Below are positions 1-8,301 of a stretch of 64,000 nucleotides of DNA, piece by piece (the stretch's first letter is position 1; every line of letters starts with the position of its first letter). The stretch is from Phycisphaera sp. (GTDB lineage: Bacteria; Planctomycetota; Phycisphaerae; Phycisphaerales; SM1A02): the NCBI GenBank assembly GCA_016124975.1, contig WGMP01000023.1:1-64000 (forward strand), written 5' to 3'. The translations under genes and the position numbers were made by a program. Below the pieces are notes generated by a model. The model ran no database searches, was not told the origin of the DNA, and worked only from the letters and a program-made list of their open reading frames with translations.

Positions 1-166
1 CGCCGCGCAGGTTCTCGCTGATGATGAGGCCCGCGGGGCTGTCCGAACCGCGGTTGATGCGGTAGCCCGTCGACAACCGCTCGAGCGTTCCCGCGAGCGA
101 GCGGTTGTTCTGGGCCGAGACGCGCTGCGCGATCATCGACGAGATGTTCGAATTGATCCGACTCAT
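1..166 (-). CDS. fliC: Flagellin, N-terminal part (cut by window edge)
   Basis: Only the first 55 residues lie inside the window. They begin MSRINSNISSMIAQ and continue LERLSTGYRINRGSDSPAGL, the conserved N-terminal D0/D1 helix of flagellin, the subunit of the flagellar filament that is exported through the flagellar secretion channel. The ATG at 166-164 has a Shine-Dalgarno site (complement of 173-178, GGAGGG) six bases upstream. This is the third flagellin in the same direction after the genes at 663 and 2525, and it has its own 496-base upstream region with two hairpins next to the ribosome site. The C-terminus, and so the size of the variable domain, cannot be seen. Confidence 0.93.
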   Translation of the reverse strand, partial: MSRINSNISSMIAQRVSAQNNRSLAGTLERLSTGYRINRGSDSPAGLIISENLRG

Positions 167-202
167 GACTTTCCCTCCATGACCCGCTGGGCTTCCAGCG
201 GG
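163..202 (-). promoter_or_regulatory. Flagellin leader hairpins, candidate CsrA site
   Basis: Two adjacent inverted repeats lie in the leader of the flagellin that starts at 166. The upstream one pairs 183-190 with 195-202 (8 bp, four-base loop; the mRNA reads CTGGAAGC across its top). The second pairs 163-167 with 178-182 (TCATG with CATGA) and would hold both the ribosome site and the start codon. A GGA at the top of an upstream hairpin plus a second GGA in the Shine-Dalgarno site is the layout of CsrA-controlled flagellin leaders such as Bacillus hag. The role is inferred. Confidence 0.45.
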
Positions 203-662
203 AACCGTGCGCCGACCGGGCAGCAACGCTGCACGGGCTTCTCGGCGACGTGTTCTCTTTGAGCCATGGCCAGATCCCTCGGCCAGGGCTCGCGTGTGTT
301 GAGGGCGCCTCCTGCACCCGTGGACTCGTCGGAGCGCGATGTTCCGACCGCGGTGGATCGGAGCCATTGCCCACGGACTTCACCGCGTCAAGACCGACAC
401 TCATGTTTGAATGTGCTACGACCGACCCGACCCGCAGCGGCGTCTCCGAGGGCGCAGGCCTCGCGCCGCGCGCACTCGTCAGAGACGGCATAGACCTCCC
501 CGTGACGCTCTGGCTGTGACAACTATGACGGATGGAGGGCCCGTCCGCGGCGGCGGTCGCATCTGGAGCGTCCGTGCGGGGAGGCGCGAGAACCTGCGCG
601 ACCGTCGGCCTCTCCAGAGTCCGCATGGCGCGCCGCGCGGACGACTTGGCGGGAGAGGATCC
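203..662. other. Intergenic region without a recognisable gene
   Basis: This stretch separates two flagellin genes. On the minus strand GCCGAGAA (complement of 239-246) resembles the GCCGATAA -10 element of flagellar sigma-28 promoters, but no TAAA sits at the expected 15-base spacing, so the promoter is only a possibility. No stem followed by a T-run was found behind the flagellin that ends at 663. Open frames here lack ribosome sites and have no recognisable protein content. Confidence 0.5.
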
Positions 663-2162
663 TCAGGCTGCGCCGAGCAGCCGCAGCACCATCTGCGGCA
701 CGGAGTTTGTCAGGGAGAGCGCCTGGACGGACGCCTCCATCAGCACCTGCTGCCTGCTCAGAAGCGCCGTGTCGCGCGCGTAGTCCGTCTCGCGGATCGC
801 GCTCTCCGCGGCCATCGTGTTCTCGAGCGTCACCTCGAGGCTTGCGATCGTCGAGCCGAGCGCGTACTTGCTGAAGCCGCCGAGGCGGCCGCGGAGGCTC
901 GAGACCTGCGAGATGGCCTCGTCGAGGATGGCCTGGGCGTCGCCGAAGTTTCCGCCCGAGATGCTCGCGGCGCCATCCGCGCGGAGCGCCGCGAGATATC
1001 CCGTGGCGCTGTTTCCGAGGTTCGAGGAGTTGACCACGGGAATCCCGATTGACACCCGCCCGAGCGCCCCGATGTCGGGCGACAGCTGGAATGCGGCGCC
1101 GCCACCTGTGATTCCAAATTGGCGCACCGCTCCCGCCTGATTGAAGGAGTTGGCGCCTCGACCGACGAGCGTCATGGCGAGGTCAAGCCCGTTCCCGACG
1201 AAGCGCGCCTCGAGCCCCTGCGTGGTGATGCTTCTGCCGTTCACCGTCAGCGTGGCGTCGCGGCCCGCGTCTGTCTGATCCTTCACGACTCCCGCGATCG
1301 CCGCGCCGTTGTCTGCGACGGCGCGGATGAAGGAGCGGCCCGTGTTGGCGTTCTCCACCTCGCGAACGCGCACGAACGCGTCGGAACCGAAGTCGGTGGA
1401 ACGGAGGACGATGAGGTTTCCGGAGAGCGAGGCGTTCACGCCCGTGAAATCGGAGACCGAGTTGATCTGGTCGCGCATGACCGCGACATCCGTGAGTTCC
1501 GCGAAGACAAGCGTCTGCGCACCGCGCGCCGTCGAGAACTCGAAGCTGACGGCGCTCTGACCCTGGTTCATCAACTGCCCGCCGGGACCGGCCGAAAGGG
1601 CGACCACGGCCTCCTGCGCAGAAGCCACGACCTGCACGGACACCTTCGCAGGCGAGGCTGCGGTGGCGGGCGGCGCACCATAGACCCGCACCGAGGCGAA
1701 TCCATCCGAAGCCGTGCCCCCGCCCGTGAGGTTGTAGTCGAACGATCCCGTGAAGATTCGCGACCCGGCGAAACTCGTGCCACCGGCGAGCCTGTCGATC
1801 GATGAGACGAGCGCGTCGATCTGCGTCTGCGCGGTCTTGACGGCGCCCTCGTCCCCTGCAGCTCCCGCAGCCTCCGTCACCAGCCCCTGGATGTCGACGA
1901 GCATTCCCGAGATCTCCTCGAGCGCTCCATCGGCCACCGTGACGAACTGGTCGGCGCGCTGCGCGTTCGCAAGCGCGGCGCTGATCGCCGCCGAGCGCGC
2001 GCGAAGGCCCTCGGATGCGATGAGCCCCGAGGGGTCGTCTCCACCTCGGTTGATGCGGTATCCCGTCGAAAGACGCTCGAGCGTCTGGTTGATCGCCTTC
2101 GTGTTGGCGGTGAAGACCCTCTGTGCGATCAGAGACGCGAGATTCGTGCCGATGCGGCTCAC
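663..2162 (-). CDS. fliC: Flagellin
   Basis: A 499-residue flagellin, the filament subunit. The N-terminus (residues 1-60, MSRIGTNLASLIAQRVFTAN then LERLSTGYRINRGGDDPSGL) and the C-terminus (last 70 residues, ending NSVPQMVLRLLGAA) are the D0/D1 helices. The middle 300 residues are a surface-exposed variable domain. The start is the GTG at 2162-2160, because AAGGAGG stands just upstream and the flagellin consensus begins exactly there; a frame extending a further 28 codons upstream is arginine-rich and not flagellin-like. It differs from the neighbour at 2525 in its middle domain, so the pair are diverged paralogues, not a recent copy. The leader carries a hairpin with the ribosome site in its loop. 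Confidence 0.95.
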   Translation of the reverse strand: MSRIGTNLASLIAQRVFTANTKAINQTLERLSTGYRINRGGDDPSGLIASEGLRARSAAISAALANAQRADQFVTVADGALEEISGMLVDIQGLVTEAAGAAGDEGAVKTAQTQIDALVSSIDRLAGGTSFAGSRIFTGSFDYNLTGGGTASDGFASVRVYGAPPATAASPAKVSVQVVASAQEAVVALSAGPGGQLMNQGQSAVSFEFSTARGAQTLVFAELTDVAVMRDQINSVSDFTGVNASLSGNLIVLRSTDFGSDAFVRVREVENANTGRSFIRAVADNGAAIAGVVKDQTDAGRDATLTVNGRSITTQGLEARFVGNGLDLAMTLVGRGANSFNQAGAVRQFGITGGGAAFQLSPDIGALGRVSIGIPVVNSSNLGNSATGYLAALRADGAASISGGNFGDAQAILDEAISQVSSLRGRLGGFSKYALGSTIASLEVTLENTMAAESAIRETDYARDTALLSRQQVLMEASVQALSLTNSVPQMVLRLLGAA

Positions 2163-2167
2163 AGGCG

Positions 2168-2183
2168 GTTCCCTCCTTGGAAC
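2168..2183 (-). promoter_or_regulatory. Hairpin with Shine-Dalgarno in the loop, candidate CsrA site
   Basis: In the mRNA of the flagellin starting at 2162, GTTCC (complement of 2179-2183) pairs with GGAAC (complement of 2168-2172), leaving the six-base loop AAGGAG. A GGA in a short hairpin loop overlapping the ribosome site is the classic CsrA target. A second hairpin with a four-base loop (2207-2222) lies just upstream. CsrA is encoded at 4022, beside the flagellins. Binding is inferred. Confidence 0.55.
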
Positions 2184-2471
2184 GCGTGGACCCGTCCTGC
2201 GACGAGTCCGCCTTCGGGCGGAATCCTCCGCCCGTGCCATGCCCACCCCGCCATCCGCCCGATTTCAGCCGCTCGCGCAGAGGACTCCGCCTCGCACGCT
2301 CGGCCCCCTGCGGATCGACCTCCGCCTACACCCGCTTGAGCACGCGGGCGCGGAACGCGTCCGACGCCCCCGTGCGCGGCCGCAAGAGGGTCACACGCCG
2401 CACGAACCTCACCCCGGGAGGGATTCCGCCCCCCGCTGAGCGGGCCGTGGCGGCGCGGAAGCGAAATGAAA

Positions 2472-2498
2472 CGCCGCCCGTCGGAGGGACGGGCGGCG
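2472..2498 (-). terminator. Rho-independent terminator after flagellin
   Basis: Perfect 11-bp stem (2472-2482 with 2488-2498, loop GGAGG). Read on the minus strand it lies 27 bases behind the stop of the flagellin at 2525 and is followed by GTTTCATTTC, a T-rich stretch. It ends the fliW-csrA-flagellin transcript before the next flagellin, which then needs its own promoter. Between this stem and 2184 no gene or clear promoter was found. Confidence 0.8.
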
Positions 2499-2524
2499 CG
2501 GAGGAGACGGAACGGAGGAGCGGG

Positions 2525-3994
2525 TTACTGCTGGAGGAGCCGCAGCACGCCCTGGGCGCTGGCGTTCGCGGTCGCAAGCACCGAAGTGCCCGCCTGCTGC
2601 AGGATCTGCGAACGGCTGAGGAGCGCGGTTTCCTGCGCGAAGTCCGCGTCGCGGATCTTCGACTCGCTCGACATGATGTTCTCGAGGCCGATCTGGAGGC
2701 TTCGCGCGTTCGTCTGCAGCGTGTTGCGCTCGAAGGCGCCGAGACGGCCGCGCAGCGACGCGATCTCGGTGATCGCGCTCGCGAGCACCGCGCTCGCCTC
2801 GCGGGTCCTGCCCGCGAGGAGCGAATTGGGCTGGCCGCTCTTGATGCTGTCGAGGAAGAAGCGGCCGTCGCTGATCGAGGTGCCACCGATGCGGCTGGCC
2901 GCGACCGACTGGATGCCGACGCCCACCTGCTGCGTGGTGTTGATGGACGGCCCGAGCTGGAAGGTCGCGCCACCTGTCACGATCGTGAAGTCGCTGAGCG
3001 CGTTCAGCGTCGTGGCGAAGTCGATCGAGAGGTCGAGGTCGACCGCGAGCGCAGGCGTGTTGATCGAAACCTTGGTTCCGTTGCCCGTCGCGAGCGCACC
3101 GTTGATGACGGCGCCGACATCGCGGCCCGTGTCGCGCTGGGTCGCCACACCGCCGGGAGCAAGGAAGGTCTCGAAGAACGCGCCCGTGTCGCCGAGCCTG
3201 CGGACTCCGACGAAGGAGTTGCTTCCGTAGGTGACCGAATTGAAGAACATGCCCGAGGTCGGGTCGGCGGAGTTCCTGAGCGAGGCGCTGATCCCGGTCG
3301 TGTCGCGCACGGTGTTGACCGCGGCGAGCACCGCGGAGAGTGCCGTGCCCGAGACGAAGCTCATGGTCTGGACGCCCGCGTTGCCGGCGATCTCGAGCGT
3401 GATCGCCGACACCAGGGTGCCCGTCGGCGCCGAGAAGAACAGCTGGCCCGTCTGCGCCGACTGGATGACCTCGACCGCGACGGGGATGTTCGAGTTCGTG
3501 CCGAACTGGACGCCGTGCACCGTGACGCCCGCGAGCGCGGAGGTGGCGATGCCGCTCGTCACATACGAGAGCGAGCCGTTCAGGAGCTGGAGGCCCGCGA
3601 AGCTCGCGGTGTTCGAGATGCGCGTGATCGACTCGATCGCGGAGTCGATCTGCAGCTGGTTCGCCGCGATCTCCTCTTCGCTGACGCCGCCTGTGTTGGC
3701 GCTGTTCACGATGAGCGAGCTGATCGAGTTGAGCAGGTCGGCGACCTCGGCGAGGTAGCCTTCGGTCGTGGAGATGACGGAGCTTGCGCGCTCGGAGTTG
3801 TCGATTGCCTGCGTCAGGCCCTTCAGCTCGGAGCGCAGGCGCTCGCTGACGATGAGGCCTGCGGGGTCGTCCGCGCCGCGGTTGATGCGAAGGCCCGTCG
3901 AGAGCCGCTGCAGGCGCACCGCCATGTTCTCGTTGGAACGGGCGAGCTTGTTCTGCGCGATGAGCGATGAAACGTTTGTATTGATGCGGGACAT
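2525..3994 (-). CDS. fliC: Flagellin
   Basis: A 489-residue flagellin. It begins MSRINTNVSSLIAQNKLARS, continues LQRLSTGLRINRGADDPAGL, and ends with the conserved C-terminal helix LATANASAQGVLRLLQQ, so both D0 helices needed for export and filament packing are intact. The ATG has AAGGAGG six bases upstream. It starts only 27 bases after csrA, so csrA and this gene very likely share a transcript, and a strong terminator follows. It is the flagellin most tightly linked to the FliW-CsrA control pair. Its leader contains the AAGGA motif but no stable hairpin was found around it, unlike the two downstream flagellins. Confidence 0.96.
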   Translation of the reverse strand: MSRINTNVSSLIAQNKLARSNENMAVRLQRLSTGLRINRGADDPAGLIVSERLRSELKGLTQAIDNSERASSVISTTEGYLAEVADLLNSISSLIVNSANTGGVSEEEIAANQLQIDSAIESITRISNTASFAGLQLLNGSLSYVTSGIATSALAGVTVHGVQFGTNSNIPVAVEVIQSAQTGQLFFSAPTGTLVSAITLEIAGNAGVQTMSFVSGTALSAVLAAVNTVRDTTGISASLRNSADPTSGMFFNSVTYGSNSFVGVRRLGDTGAFFETFLAPGGVATQRDTGRDVGAVINGALATGNGTKVSINTPALAVDLDLSIDFATTLNALSDFTIVTGGATFQLGPSINTTQQVGVGIQSVAASRIGGTSISDGRFFLDSIKSGQPNSLLAGRTREASAVLASAITEIASLRGRLGAFERNTLQTNARSLQIGLENIMSSESKIRDADFAQETALLSRSQILQQAGTSVLATANASAQGVLRLLQQ

Positions 3995-4021
3995 GGAATC
4001 CTCCTTGACTGGAATGCCCGT

Positions 4022-4333
4022 TCAGGCGGTCTCGCGCCTGCTGGTACTGCTCGCCGCGAGCTTCGCGGCCGTCGGCAGGACCACCCTGCCAGCCTGGGTC
4101 TTGCCGCCGCGCGATCCTGCGGGCGGCCTGAACGAACCGAGCTCGCCGCGGAATGAAGCGGCCTGCTGGTTCTCGTTGCGGATCGCGTCGTACACCTCCT
4201 TGCGGTGCACCGCGACCGTCGCGGGGGCCTTGATGCCGATCCGCACCTTGTCGCCTCTGATGTCCACGATCGTGAGCTCGACGTCGTCGCCGATCATGAT
4301 CGTCTCGTCTCGTTGCCTGGAGAGCACCAGCAT
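4022..4333 (-). CDS. csrA: Carbon storage regulator / translational repressor CsrA
   Basis: The first 60 residues ([20 protein letters not shown] through [14 protein letters not shown]) are CsrA, a small dimeric RNA-binding protein that blocks ribosome binding by gripping GGA motifs in leaders. The start is the ATG at 4333, preceded by AAGGAGC; upstream codons in this frame are not CsrA-like. At 103 residues it is longer than the usual 60-75: about 35 extra residues rich in R, G, K and S follow the core. It lies between fliW and flagellin, the arrangement of the FliW-CsrA-flagellin homeostasis loop, in which FliW sequesters CsrA until free flagellin competes for FliW. Confidence 0.95.
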
Positions 4334-4427
4334 GTCGCGGGCTCCTTCCTTTATGGGCTTCCGTGCCCGTTGGGTTCCTTCCGTGTGACGCCGGGCATGC
4401 CGGCACGACAATTCACCGTGCGCGGGC

Positions 4428-4874
4428 TCAGGCGATCTTCTGCGCGGCCTGCTCCGCGAGCTGCACGAGCTCGTGGCGCGTCGACCACTTCTTCTCAGCG
4501 AGGACGAGCTGCATGCCACGGCGGTTGGCCGCGTTGATGACGATCGGACCCTGCAGGTTCGCCGTCAGCGACTGCTCGCGCTTGTTCACGATCACGAGCA
4601 CCTGCGCATCGCCCATGTCGGTGATGCCGAGCTCGTCCATCTGCTCCTTGCGGATCGTGGCCTGGTACTCGGGCACCCAGAGCGCGGGGTCGGTGACCAC
4701 GAACGCGAGGTCGGGCGCCTCGACCGACTGCAGCCAGAAGAAGATGCCGTTGTCGTCGGGCTGAAGGAGCGAGAAGCTCCTGTAGCTCGAGAAGCCCAGC
4801 AGTCCCGCGGGGATCTCGATGAGGCGCGACTCGTCGATGTCGACGGGTCCGAAGCGGGTCGTTTCGATTCGCAT
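4428..4874 (-). CDS. fliW: Flagellar assembly factor FliW
   Basis: A 148-residue FliW. Visible family features are the early beta strands with [20 protein letters not shown], the block [12 protein letters not shown] and the late stretch [20 protein letters not shown]. FliW binds flagellin monomers and, allosterically, CsrA. The start chosen is MRIETTRFG at 4874, which has CGGAG ten bases upstream and matches where the family begins; an ATG 14 codons earlier lacks a ribosome site. The csrA gene starts 94 bases downstream, and flgL ends 132 bases upstream, so the three may form one unit. Confidence 0.95.
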
Positions 4875-5006
4875 GTCGTCTGCTCCGTTCGGCTTCCAAT
4901 CCTTGGAGTCCGGCATCCATGCCGGTCGGGCTCCAACCCTTCTTCCGCCGCGGAGAGCCGAGCTCCGCTGCGGGTCCGCGCACCGCGCGGACCGGTGATT
5001 CGTCTG

Positions 5007-6992
5007 CTACCTCAGGAAATCAAGCAGCGTCAGGTTCGCCGTGCGCGCAGACACGGCGAGGCTCGCCTCGAGCTGCCGCTGCAGCGCCGCGAAGCGGGTC
5101 GCCGCCTCCGCGTAGTCGAGGTCGTTGATCTCCGAGCGAAGCTTCTGGTCCATGATGTCGAGTTCCGCCTCGCGCGACGATGCGTCGATCACGCGCTGCG
5201 TTCGCACGCCGACCTCGGCGCGCGCCTCGCTGAGTCTGGTGAGGTCCCCGTCGAACTTGGCTGCGGCAAGACCGATGCCGCGCTCGTCGTTGGCGAGGAG
5301 CGCGTCGCGCAGGGCGATGAGGTGCGAGAAGACGCTGTCGACGGCCACCTTGGCGCGGTCTGTGCCGACGAGGCTCGCGCCCGCGGAACTGCCGAGGATG
5401 CCGAGGTCTTCCGCGGTGCCGCTTGCGTTCAGTTCGGCCACGGTGGTGGAGCCGGCGCCGACCGTGGAGTCGACGAGCTCGAGGCCGTTGCCGACCGAGA
5501 CCAGCCGGGCGTTGAACTCCGCGGGAAGAACGCCCGCGGCGGCGGCCGCGGCGTTGATCGAGCCGATCACATCCTGCACGGTCGCATCGCCCTCGATGTC
5601 GACGTCGAAGGTGCGTCCGTCCTTCAGCGTGACGCGGAAGTCCATGTTGCGCACGGGGTCGGGCAGGCCCGTCAGCGGATCGACAGCGCCCGAGACCTGC
5701 CTCACGCCGCGGCCTTCGTTGAAGTCGGCGAGCTGGGTGGTGGACGCGAACGAGCGGATGCCGAGTTCGCTCGCGGTCGGGTTGCCCGAGTACTCCTCGA
5801 TCGCGAGCGCGCTTCCCGAGAGTTCGTTCACCACATGGAGGCGCGTTCCATCGTCGGAGATGACGACGCGCGCCCCGATCCTGCCCGCCGCGACGGCGTT
5901 CTGCAGGTCCTCGACCGTGACGAGGGCGCCCATGTCGATGATGCGCGACTGGTTGCCGTTTCGGACGAGGATCTCGCCCATCGGCTGCGTGAGACCCGTG
6001 ATGGAATCGAGGCGCGTGAGCGGCGTGATGCGCGGATCGAGGTCAGCGCCCGTCGTCGAGACGCCTGGCGGATAGGTGCCGAGAAGACCGAGGTCGCCCG
6101 CGGTGCTCGTCGAGTTCGAGTCGCGGATGTCGATGGTGACTCCCGCGCTCGGCGTGATCGCGATGCGGTCGCCCGTCACGGGGTCGATTCCGATCGTGGC
6201 GCCCGGATCGGTCGCCTGGATCACCTGCGACAGTCGCCCGAGGATGTCGCCGATCGAGTCCGCGTCGGAGAGGTCGAGCTGGGTGACCGTGCCGTTCACA
6301 TCGATCTCGACGCTGCCAGGGCGCACGCCGAGGCCGTTCGCGCCGTTCAGCGAAGAGAGCCTCGTGCTTGCGGTGAGCGAGGGATCGAGGTCGCGGTCGC
6401 CGCGGACCCTGTTCGAGAGCGCGCCGAAGGCCTGCTCGCCGCTCATGGTCACGCGCACATCGGCGCTCATGCCGATGTCGACCTGCTGTCCGGGCCCGAC
6501 GCCCGCGTAGCGGATTCCCTGCAGGAGCGAGCCGAACGGCGCCTGCGCGTTGCGATCTCCGCCGAAGAGGTGGACGCCGTTGCGGTCGCGGTTGGCCATC
6601 GAGACCAGCGCGTTCAGCATCGAGTCGATGACGCCCGCCTGGTTGCGACGGGTGATCTCGTCGCTGCCGAAGCCGACCTGCGCGAGGCCGATCGTCTTCG
6701 CCTCCTGGATGAGTTCCGTGATGTCGTTGAGCGAGCTGTCGATCGAGTCGAGCATCGACTCGGCGGCGCTCAGGTTGCGGACCCGCTGTTCGCGGCGGCC
6801 GATCGACTCGTTGATCGAGAGGACCGCGGAGGCTCCCACCGAGTCCTCGCTCGGGCGCGAGAAGCGCTCGCCCGTCGACAACTGCACCTGCGTGCGCAGG
6901 AGTTCGCGGTTCGTGCCGGAAATGCCTCCAAGCGCAATTCTTGACGCAAGCAGGTTCGAGACACGGGCGAGATTGGCAGGAATGGCGCTCAT
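5007..6992 (-). CDS. flgL: Flagellar hook-associated protein 3 FlgL, long form
   Basis: FlgL joins the hook-filament junction (second zone, next to FlgK). The N-terminal 100 residues (ending QVQLSTGERFSRPSEDSVGA and INESIGRREQRVRNL) and the last 60 (EINDLDYAEAATRFAALQRQ, ending TLLDFLR) are the flagellin-like helices typical of FlgL. Between them lies about 450 residues of beta-rich sequence containing the domain that marks FlgL/FlgK-like proteins in several phyla. With 661 residues it is about twice the enterobacterial length. MSAIPANLARVSNLLASR at 6992 is the start of the homologous region; no clear ribosome site is seen before it. FlgK is not adjacent: its gene lies 3 kb away beyond three unrelated genes. 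Confidence 0.9.
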   Translation of the reverse strand: MSAIPANLARVSNLLASRIALGGISGTNRELLRTQVQLSTGERFSRPSEDSVGASAVLSINESIGRREQRVRNLSAAESMLDSIDSSLNDITELIQEAKTIGLAQVGFGSDEITRRNQAGVIDSMLNALVSMANRDRNGVHLFGGDRNAQAPFGSLLQGIRYAGVGPGQQVDIGMSADVRVTMSGEQAFGALSNRVRGDRDLDPSLTASTRLSSLNGANGLGVRPGSVEIDVNGTVTQLDLSDADSIGDILGRLSQVIQATDPGATIGIDPVTGDRIAITPSAGVTIDIRDSNSTSTAGDLGLLGTYPPGVSTTGADLDPRITPLTRLDSITGLTQPMGEILVRNGNQSRIIDMGALVTVEDLQNAVAAGRIGARVVISDDGTRLHVVNELSGSALAIEEYSGNPTASELGIRSFASTTQLADFNEGRGVRQVSGAVDPLTGLPDPVRNMDFRVTLKDGRTFDVDIEGDATVQDVIGSINAAAAAAGVLPAEFNARLVSVGNGLELVDSTVGAGSTTVAELNASGTAEDLGILGSSAGASLVGTDRAKVAVDSVFSHLIALRDALLANDERGIGLAAAKFDGDLTRLSEARAEVGVRTQRVIDASSREAELDIMDQKLRSEINDLDYAEAATRFAALQRQLEASLAVSARTANLTLLDFLR

Positions 6993-7172
6993 GGAAGCTG
7001 TCCGGGGGACCACGAGGCAACGGGCATGCCCGACTCCCGCGGCGGGACGCGACGCGGTCGCCAGCGAGACCTCGGCACGCCGCGGGCGCCTCGCGGGCGC
7101 GGTGCGAGGGGGCGGGAACCTCGAGAGACGCCGCCATGGCGCGAAAAGGGCGCGATTTCCCATCGCGGCGGG

Positions 7173-7200
7173 TTGATCGCAGCCGCCCTGGCGCGACAAT
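7173..7200 (+). promoter_or_regulatory. Promoter with -10 six bases before ATG
   Basis: GACAAT (7195-7200) ends six bases before the ATG at 7207, with TTGATC (7173-7178) 16 bases upstream as a -35. The transcript would start at or next to the start codon. Confidence 0.5.
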
Positions 7201-7206
7201 CGGCGC

Positions 7207-8301
7207 ATGACCGACACCCCCCAGCGCCCGGAGCGCGCCGCCGCCCGACCGTCCCTGCGCCTCGCCTCCACCTCGCTGACGACCGCCCTTCTCGCCGCCG
7301 GGTGCCTCGCGTCCCCAGCGGCCGCGCAGGATGTGCTGCTCGTCCCCGAGAGCCTCGGCGACCGCATCTGGGCGCTGAGCCCCGTCGACGGCAGCGTGCT
7401 CTCGACGAGCTTCATCGCGCCCGACGGGATCATTTCGCAGCCGATCCACGCGATCCCAAGCGGGACGGGCACGATCCTGATCGCCGACGAGGTGCGGAAG
7501 TCGATCTTCGAGTATTCGGGAAGCGGCCAGTACATCCGCACGCTCGCGGGGCCGAAGGACGGCGTGCTCGGCGCCTACAGCCTCTGCGTCCGCGACGGCT
7601 TCGTCTACTTCACGAGCGGCTCGGGCGTGAGCACCAGCGAGGGCTACATCTACAAGGTCGCCCTCTCGGGCGGGCCTGTGACCGTCTTCAGCGACTGGCT
7701 CTCGGTCGGCGCGCCGCGCGGCATCCAGCCCTTCGGAAACGGCTTCGTGGTCGGAAACTCGACCGACGACGACCTCGAGCTCGTCGGCCCGACGGGCGCG
7801 GTCGCGTCGATCCCGTTCCATGACTCGGACGGCGCGATCGGCATCGACTTCCCCCAGCAGATCAAGCGCCGCGCGAACGGCGAGTTCATGGTGGCGGGGT
7901 TCTCCGAACCGTGGGGCGTCTACTTCTACGACATCTCGGGCATCCAGGTCGGCGCCTACACCACGCCACAGGTCCCGCTCTCGGCGCGCGGCTGCCACGA
8001 ACTCGACAACGGCGACATTCTGTTCACCGCGGGAACGCTGATCCAGCGCGTGATCGTGAAGAACTCCACCACCGCGCTCATCATCAACCAGGCGGGCGCG
8101 AGCTTCCGCTTTGTCGAGCGCTTCAGCCCGCCGGCCGCCTGCGCGGGCGACATCGACGGCAGCCAGTCGGTCGACGCGGCCGACCTGAGCGCCCTGCTTG
8201 CGGCCTGGGGCGCGACATCGGGCGCGGCGGACCTCAACGGCTCTGGCTCGGTTGATGCTGCGGATCTTTCGATCCTGCTTGCCGCGTGGGGCCCCTGCTG
8301 A
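7207..8301 (+). CDS. Secreted propeller-like protein with C-terminal dockerin
   Basis: A 364-residue exported protein. Residues 1-41 form a signal peptide (basic start, hydrophobic LTTALLAAGCLAS, cleavage after PAAAQ). Residues 45-300 show repeats of the form GTILIADEVRKSIFEYS and NGDILFTAGTLIQRV, as in NHL/SMP-30-type beta-propellers. Residues 312-364 are a duplicated calcium-binding dockerin: GDIDGSQSVDAADLSALLAA, then DLNGSGSVDAADLSILLAA with two flanking cysteines. Dockerins bind cohesin modules; in planctomycetes this ending is common on surface proteins although the partner is usually unknown. No Shine-Dalgarno precedes the ATG. It converges with a PEP-CTERM protein and shares its terminator. 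Confidence 0.8.
   Translation: MTDTPQRPERAAARPSLRLASTSLTTALLAAGCLASPAAAQDVLLVPESLGDRIWALSPVDGSVLSTSFIAPDGIISQPIHAIPSGTGTILIADEVRKSIFEYSGSGQYIRTLAGPKDGVLGAYSLCVRDGFVYFTSGSGVSTSEGYIYKVALSGGPVTVFSDWLSVGAPRGIQPFGNGFVVGNSTDDDLELVGPTGAVASIPFHDSDGAIGIDFPQQIKRRANGEFMVAGFSEPWGVYFYDISGIQVGAYTTPQVPLSARGCHELDNGDILFTAGTLIQRVIVKNSTTALIINQAGASFRFVERFSPPAACAGDIDGSQSVDAADLSALLAAWGATSGAADLNGSGSVDAADLSILLAAWGPC

Follow-up and report, generated by a model that had tools for sequence, protein, structure and literature searches.

In Campylobacter jejuni, the leader of the flagellin gene flaA was reported to form two stem-loops (SL1 and SL2) with ANGGA loops, the second of which lies over the ribosome site; CsrA binds and represses this leader, and compensatory changes were described between species (PMC4894983). 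In Bacillus subtilis, the leader of hag has two CsrA sites, with an overlap between CsrA site and ribosome site, FliW is the antagonist of CsrA, and flagellin acts as the sensor of the Hag-FliW-CsrA switch (PMC7652899). The same review describes CsrA-type sites in the csrA leader of Escherichia coli, together with the sponge RNAs CsrB/C, and gives an ANGGAN hexaloop hairpin as the high-affinity target of RsmE (PMC7652899). Planctomycetes have been listed among the groups that may use FliW (PMC4682653), and a search of the open-licence full-text literature found no work connecting CsrA with flagellins of planctomycetes, and none describing CsrA sites in fliW.

The locus described here resembles that of flaA in having ANGGA motifs in hairpin loops, one of them on the ribosome site, in its compensatory stem changes and in the presence of both CsrA and FliW. 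It differs from the published description of flaA in that there is usually one hairpin, placed exactly on the ribosome site, in that fliW, csrA and flagellin are adjacent, and in that sites are also found on the leaders of csrA and, in some cases, of fliW. Judged by its sequence, the element closely matches the flaA leader and would be of the same kind, in another phylum. The overlap of the CsrA site with the ribosome site and the FliW antagonist are shared with hag as reviewed, and flagellin would presumably be the sensor here too; unlike the single hag gene with its two sites, several flagellin genes are present, in a different phylum (PMC7652899). The E. coli system, as covered in that review, is comparable in its csrA leader with CsrA-type sites, and a multi-hairpin GGA RNA candidate was found here on contig C34; unlike in E. 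coli, these elements are combined with FliW, and the sponge is only a candidate (PMC7652899).

The fliW-csrA-flagellin locus and its leader hairpins

The window, as the whole 64,000-nt stretch analyzed is called here, opens contig C7 of a draft assembly of 3.61 Mb. Its minus strand carries, in this order, flgL (5007-6992; name inferred, with flagellin-like ends in Pfam), fliW (4428-4874; PF02623, 8e-37; PDB 5dmb_A), csrA (4022-4333, 103 aa; PF02599, 9.7e-24; PDB 5dmb_D) and three flagellin genes, which were ranked from csrA onward. F1 (2525-3994; Pfam match and tree) lies 27 nt from the end of csrA and has a terminator-like hairpin on its 3' side (2471-2499, minus strand). F2 (663-2162; GTG start at 2162) is of a divergent rank-2 type according to Pfam and the tree, and F3 (1-166; ATG at 166; identified by the tree) is cut by the contig end, the first base of the contig being inside the gene. 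The csrA and fliW genes that the first-pass annotation placed upstream of the flagellins were confirmed by these Pfam families. The Rfam scan of the window gave no match at gathering score, and no sigma-70-like site was detected in a promoter scan of positions 1-7200. Beyond the cluster, positions 7207-8301 of the plus strand encode a protein whose C-terminal end consists of a similar pair of DxxGSxxVDAADLSxLLAAWG stretches that look dockerin-like by eye.

In the tree, F2, F3 and a flagellin from contig C11 of the same genome clustered within the rank-2 type, and these three genes may represent a local expansion, although the placement of F2 and F3 was unsure because the branch of F2 is long and the F3 sequence short. 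Both C7 (window 1-166) and C11 (L059 1-1041) begin within flagellin genes, and a single longer flagellin array may have been broken in the assembly, leaving one of its ends on each contig. The nearest named relative found was an uncultured bacterium bin (L117), with 83% identity to F1, and the more distant relatives were labeled Phycisphaerae, Sedimentisphaerales and Planctomycetaceae. The organism itself probably belongs to the class Phycisphaerae.

The CsrA of the window has L4 and R44, which we take to be RNA-binding residues, as well as N55 and a long C-terminal extension. L4, R44 and N55 were found in 77 of the 77 CsrA proteins of the order loci, whose lengths ranged from 79 to 153 aa. 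N55 and the C-terminal extension have been described as the contact with FliW (PMC13407953), and the closest solved structures of both proteins came from the entry 5dmb (chain D for CsrA, chain A for FliW), with 1vpz scoring nearly equally for CsrA. This protein, with a fliW gene beside it, has the sequence features of a FliW-regulated CsrA. A second, divergent CsrA of 77 aa is encoded on contig C19 (L074 1896-2126, G000:C19); it is 42% identical, has a four-residue insertion and keeps R44, and its residue aligned to N55 is not N. At least two CsrA matches were found in 125 of the 151 genomes of the order, the copy on C19 being the only second copy that was aligned.

Hairpins with an ANGGAN hexaloop were found in the leaders of F1, F2, csrA and fliW, and in F1 and F2, as in most of the rank-1 leaders of the order, the hairpin overlaps the ribosome-binding site. 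F1 had been annotated as lacking a hairpin, which was wrong, since AGUC[AAGGAG]GAUU lies at 3997-4010 (minus strand), with 4 bp, one of them G-U, and the ribosome site as its hexaloop; this hairpin is orthologous to the order-wide rank-1 element, and L117 has the same core. The F2 hairpin, GUUCC[AAGGAG]GGAAC (2168-2183, minus strand), had been described exactly, its 5-bp stem enclosing the ribosome site as a six-base loop. It is one of just three ANGGAN hexaloop hairpins of at least 5 bp in the 64 kb, both strands considered. Further upstream of F2, a GC-rich hairpin (2215-2234, minus strand) has a GGAU tetraloop and is not of the ANGGAN type. Both hairpins previously noticed at F3 are present, one (UCAUG...CAUGA, 163-182, minus strand) enclosing the ribosome site and start codon and the other (8 bp, 183-202, minus strand) just upstream, but neither is an ANGGAN hexaloop, because the former has a loop of 8-10 nt and the latter an AAGC tetraloop with the GG of its GGA paired in the stem. 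The hairpin at 183-202 was rejected as a CsrA site for this pairing. In the csrA leader the hairpin is GGGC[ACGGAA]GCCC (4355-4368, minus strand, 4 bp), and in the fliW leader it is CCGGC[AUGGAU]GCCGG (4910-4925, minus strand, 5 bp), the top match in the window of R2, a model made from csrA-leader hairpins.

The conservation in close relatives on which the earlier reading depended was found for the hairpins of F1, csrA and fliW, but not for those of the distal flagellins. The csrA and fliW hairpins were kept in 3/3 same-genus genomes and both were readable in L117; across the genus of the window (4/4 genomes) the csrA stem is 4 bp long and that of fliW 5-6 bp, L040 showing a paired change in the latter. 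The F2 hairpin was absent from the second flagellin leaders of L117 and of three same-genus genomes, and the start-codon hairpin of F3 was reduced in the third flagellin of L117 to CATG/CATG (4 bp, by eye). The conserved sites of the window are those of F1, csrA and fliW; the F2 stem would be either a lineage-specific strengthening or chance, and F3 would have at most a minimal site. When the leaders were folded in context (-60 to +20), the closing probability was 0.20 for the F1 loop, 0.12 for the F2 loop and 0.0 for F3, compared with a median of 0.84 for the rank-1 leaders of the order. Left of position 469 in L118 (Sedimentisphaerales), a flagellin ribosome site was seen by eye within the stem of a CCTCCAT...ATGGAGG hairpin, which is another means of hiding a ribosome site.

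The rank-1 hairpin in the order and beyond

The leaders of 77 first-, 50 second- and 13 third-ranked flagellins were compared. One rank-1 row, L059, was the C11 flagellin of the window genome itself, placed by the tree in rank 2; it was dropped from the rank-1 counts, leaving 76, and is still among the 75 rows of the re-pairing null. Two leaders without GGAG (L043 and L105) were scored as misses among the 76. The gene order fliW-csrA-flagellin was found in 76 of the 77 csrA-anchored loci of the order, which were taken from flagellin-bearing genomes, and the exception (L076) is cut by its own contig end. The strong hairpin sits on the first flagellin, directly after csrA, with the consensus CAAUC[AMGGAG]GAUUG.

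A stem of at least 5 bp (G-U allowed) round a GGAG hexaloop was observed in 53 of the 76 rank-1 leaders. Re-pairing of the arms gave a mean of 34.8 in 2000 trials and never more than 42, so the pairing exceeds what the shared sequence gives. Stems of this length were found in 2/50 rank-2 leaders, where re-pairing leads to an expectation of 0.8/50 by chance; the 5 bp of F2 taken alone are therefore modest evidence, and the hairpin family as a whole is far beyond chance. At the other ribosome sites of these loci, for which starts were picked mechanically, 5 bp were reached in 4 of 168, or in 2 of 166 once two mis-started flagellins were removed. The rank-1 stems are rich in A-U pairs, and the first base of the loop is A in 70/74 rank-1 and 49/50 rank-2 leaders, the second base being variable, in agreement with ANGGAN.

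Furthermore, the stem showed covariation. The alignment has 74 rows (57 distinct); 75.2% of its cells pair, versus 66.9% after shuffling, and for each of the seven pairs both partners have changed in some row. The covariation score was reached by none of 500 shuffles, a control inflated by relatedness, and it peaked at zero slide and was lower at every other slide, a control that preserves relatedness. Similar covariation was observed in a second set, A4, in which 59 rows lie beyond the order and 18, hand-picked for variety, belong to its 74. Clear paired changes can be seen in AAAC[AAGGAG]GUUU, ACAAC[AGGGAG]GUUGU and CAGUC[AAGGAG]GACUG.

A covariance model, R1, was made from the 68 rows of alignment A2, which omits six loci present in A1 (L047, L048, L050, L054, L056 and L100). 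It matched 115 of the 151 order genomes at E 0.01, and in 104 of these the match lies 144-399 nt downstream of csrA on the same strand; 38 of these 104 genomes had contributed no row to the model. Away from csrA, 25 of the 129 matches in the order were found; among the 19 of these that were looked at, 12 precede an open frame of at least 200 aa at the expected distance, which in four cases is murA-like and belongs to a single genus. R1 thus also matches the ribosome sites of unrelated genes, and part of its signal is therefore that of a strong ribosome site. In the window genome, six matches were obtained up to E 10, with F1 as the only flagellin (E 0.18); of the other five, one precedes a 500-aa frame with a TTG start and the rest no frame longer than 100 aa.

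Outside the order, all 53 genomes of the class with a strong FliW match were used, leaving out 12 weak matches. A flagellin was found in 49 of these 53 fliW-anchored loci (four have none in the stretch), with a stem of at least 5 bp in 30/49. Outside the class, 27 of 63 loci were taken, 17 of them had no flagellin in the stretch, and the element was found in 1/10; R1 gave six matches outside the class across the phylum, two of them at flagellin-like genes. Among the 30 best-scoring flagellin loci of the class, which are not a random draw, an ANGGAN hairpin within 150 nt was found in 6/7 leaders from genomes with FliW and in 0/24 from genomes without it, a contrast confounded with ancestry because the FliW-less flagellins are of a different type.

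Additionally, the ribosome site of a gene judged murA-like by eye carries the similar hairpin GCGATC[AAGGAG]GATCGC in 4/5 genomes of one genus (L127-L130); this genus is flagellin-less and has only a lower-scoring CsrA. Four family members (G002, G013, G018 and G023) have fliW and a canonical-scoring csrA yet no Flagellin_N match, and their fliW-csrA pair may have a role besides flagellin.

Hairpins in other leaders and a candidate sponge RNA

ANGGAN hairpins were found in 34 of the 77 csrA leaders of the order, compared with a mean of 0.43 and a maximum of 4 in shuffles, and were distributed over f1 to f6; 31 of the 77 csrA leaders had none even at 4 bp. When the loop was permuted, A.GGA. was at the top with 34, the next permutation reached 9 and the complementary loop 0, and the interiors of genes had three ANGGAN hairpins in 236 kb. 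The csrA leaders of the class outside the order had such hairpins in 19/53 cases, and those outside the class in 0/24. Given this enrichment, csrA is probably also subject to repression by its own product.

Hairpins of this type were also present in 10 of the 77 fliW leaders (shuffles: mean 0.6, maximum 3), eight of the ten coming from two genera, and upstream of the ribosome site in 12/50 rank-2 leaders (mean 0.19, maximum 2), with eight of the twelve again from two genera. The upstream hairpins have the same loop and unrelated stems. Among the rank-1 leaders, 9/76 have an upstream ANGGAN hairpin, and F1-F3 have none. The comparison with hag-like two-site targets made in the first-pass annotation did not extend to a second site upstream; since upstream sites are few, the element was considered to work like those of hag and flaA but was not filed as a two-site leader.

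In a search with R2 over 15 selected genomes, 30 of the 54 matches were looked at, and 8/30 precede csrA or flagellar genes; one of the eight (L289) is at a row of the model, and L293 and L294 are two members of one genus. Absences from this search carry little meaning, because only 150 candidates were scored in its first step. In relatives of the window genome (L293, L294, L297, L302, L305 and L308), ANGGAN hairpins were seen upstream of genes for a sigma factor of the flagellar type (in two genomes from the same genus), fliJ, a flgA-like chaperone, fliM and flgM, and a wider CsrA flagellar regulon is possible.

In the window genome, four R2 matches were obtained up to E 2, and two of them lie 177 nt apart on contig C34, in a GC-rich, intergenic, multi-hairpin region (L307 1280-1655, about 85,950-86,330 of G000:C34). 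Six ANGGA motifs were counted in L307 1280-1619, where shuffles had a mean of 1.2 and 0/2000 reached this number, as well as three ANGGAN hexaloop hairpins of at least 5 bp, where 2000 shuffles never had more than one; a fourth ANGGA hairpin has a 7-nt loop. The region had no codon-position signal, its folding (1290-1560) was 3.8 sd below that of shuffles, and at 1620-1652 lies a terminator-like hairpin of 13 bp with a run of T. The Rfam search of L307 found no family up to E 5. Since the region was chosen by a genome search, the shuffle odds cover the region alone and not all the places searched, and the proximity of two of the four genome-wide matches seems the stronger point. The region has the features of a sponge-type RNA (multiple ANGGA hairpin loops, intergenic position and terminator), and we tentatively consider it possible, on this pattern of motifs, that this bacterium, besides FliW, produces a sponge RNA of the CsrB/RsmZ type from C34.

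Explanations for the hairpins and their meaning

The hairpins are very probably CsrA targets of a FliW-CsrA flagellin checkpoint. This reading of the locus, already put forward in the first-pass annotation, was well supported by the comparison, which placed ANGGAN hairpins on the flagellin ribosome site behind fliW-csrA across the order and in further orders of the class. All results come from sequence comparison, and the binding, the repression and the role of FliW in this organism we infer from homology. According to the proposed mechanism, free CsrA would hold the hexaloop and block ribosome binding, and FliW would hold CsrA, so that the flagellin mRNA is freed. When export stalls, flagellin would take FliW away and CsrA would then repress flagellin; CsrA would probably also repress the translation of its own gene and of fliW, allowing the circuit to settle. 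The weak points in the window are the F1 stem of just 4 bp, the low closing probabilities of the F1 and F2 loops and the E value of the R1 match.

That the hairpin by itself tunes the access of the ribosome, as a thermometer or standby structure in which CsrA takes no part, is very improbable. The position of the ribosome site in the loop, the A-U-rich rank-1 stems and the similar hairpins on unrelated ribosome sites, such as those of murA-like genes in a genus without canonical CsrA, would agree with it. Nevertheless, ANGGAN hairpins are also enriched far upstream of the ribosome site, on unrelated stems, in the leaders of csrA, fliW and rank-2 flagellins, neither the loop permutations nor the complementary loop showed enrichment, and the 24 leaders compared from FliW-less genomes of the class had none, with the confounding by flagellin type noted above. 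The reading of the hairpins as accidents without regulatory function, whether by chance or particular to the lineage, applies to F2 and F3, for which it has slightly less than an even chance. The absence of the F2 stem from the rank-2 leaders of the nearest relatives, the rarity of 5-bp stems in that rank and the low closing probabilities speak for it; against it, few ANGGAN hairpins of this length exist in the window and that of F2 falls exactly on the ribosome site, and the rank-2 leaders retain A-N-GGAG, almost all of them with the A.

The first-pass annotation had predicted a graded control in which F2 and F3 are repressed more strongly than F1, and this is improbable. In its favor, the F2 stem (5 bp) is longer than that of F1 (4 bp), but this holds in the window genome alone: in the 49 genomes with two flagellins, the rank-1 stem was longer in 39, equal in nine and shorter in one, the window genome, which owes this exception to its weak F1 stem together with the longer F2 stem. 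Moreover, F1 does have a hairpin and F3 has no ANGGAN hexaloop hairpin. The prediction was thus contradicted, and the distal flagellins were rejected as main targets given the opposite order in 39/49 genomes and the nine ties. If stem length is a measure of CsrA affinity, CsrA would act mainly on the proximal flagellin in this order, contrary to the prediction.

Taken in this sense, the flagellin checkpoint of CsrA and FliW that was shown in Firmicutes and Campylobacter would be extended to a class of Planctomycetota, where a covarying and easily recognized RNA element would predict which flagellin falls under CsrA. Feedback would likewise be predicted for csrA and, in some lineages, for fliW. 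According to the 2020 review, the joint action of FliW and small RNAs in any species "remains to be determined" (PMC7652899), and the C34 region is a candidate for such a joint action. If the sponge is true, CsrA would be held by a protein, a small RNA and its own leader in one cell.
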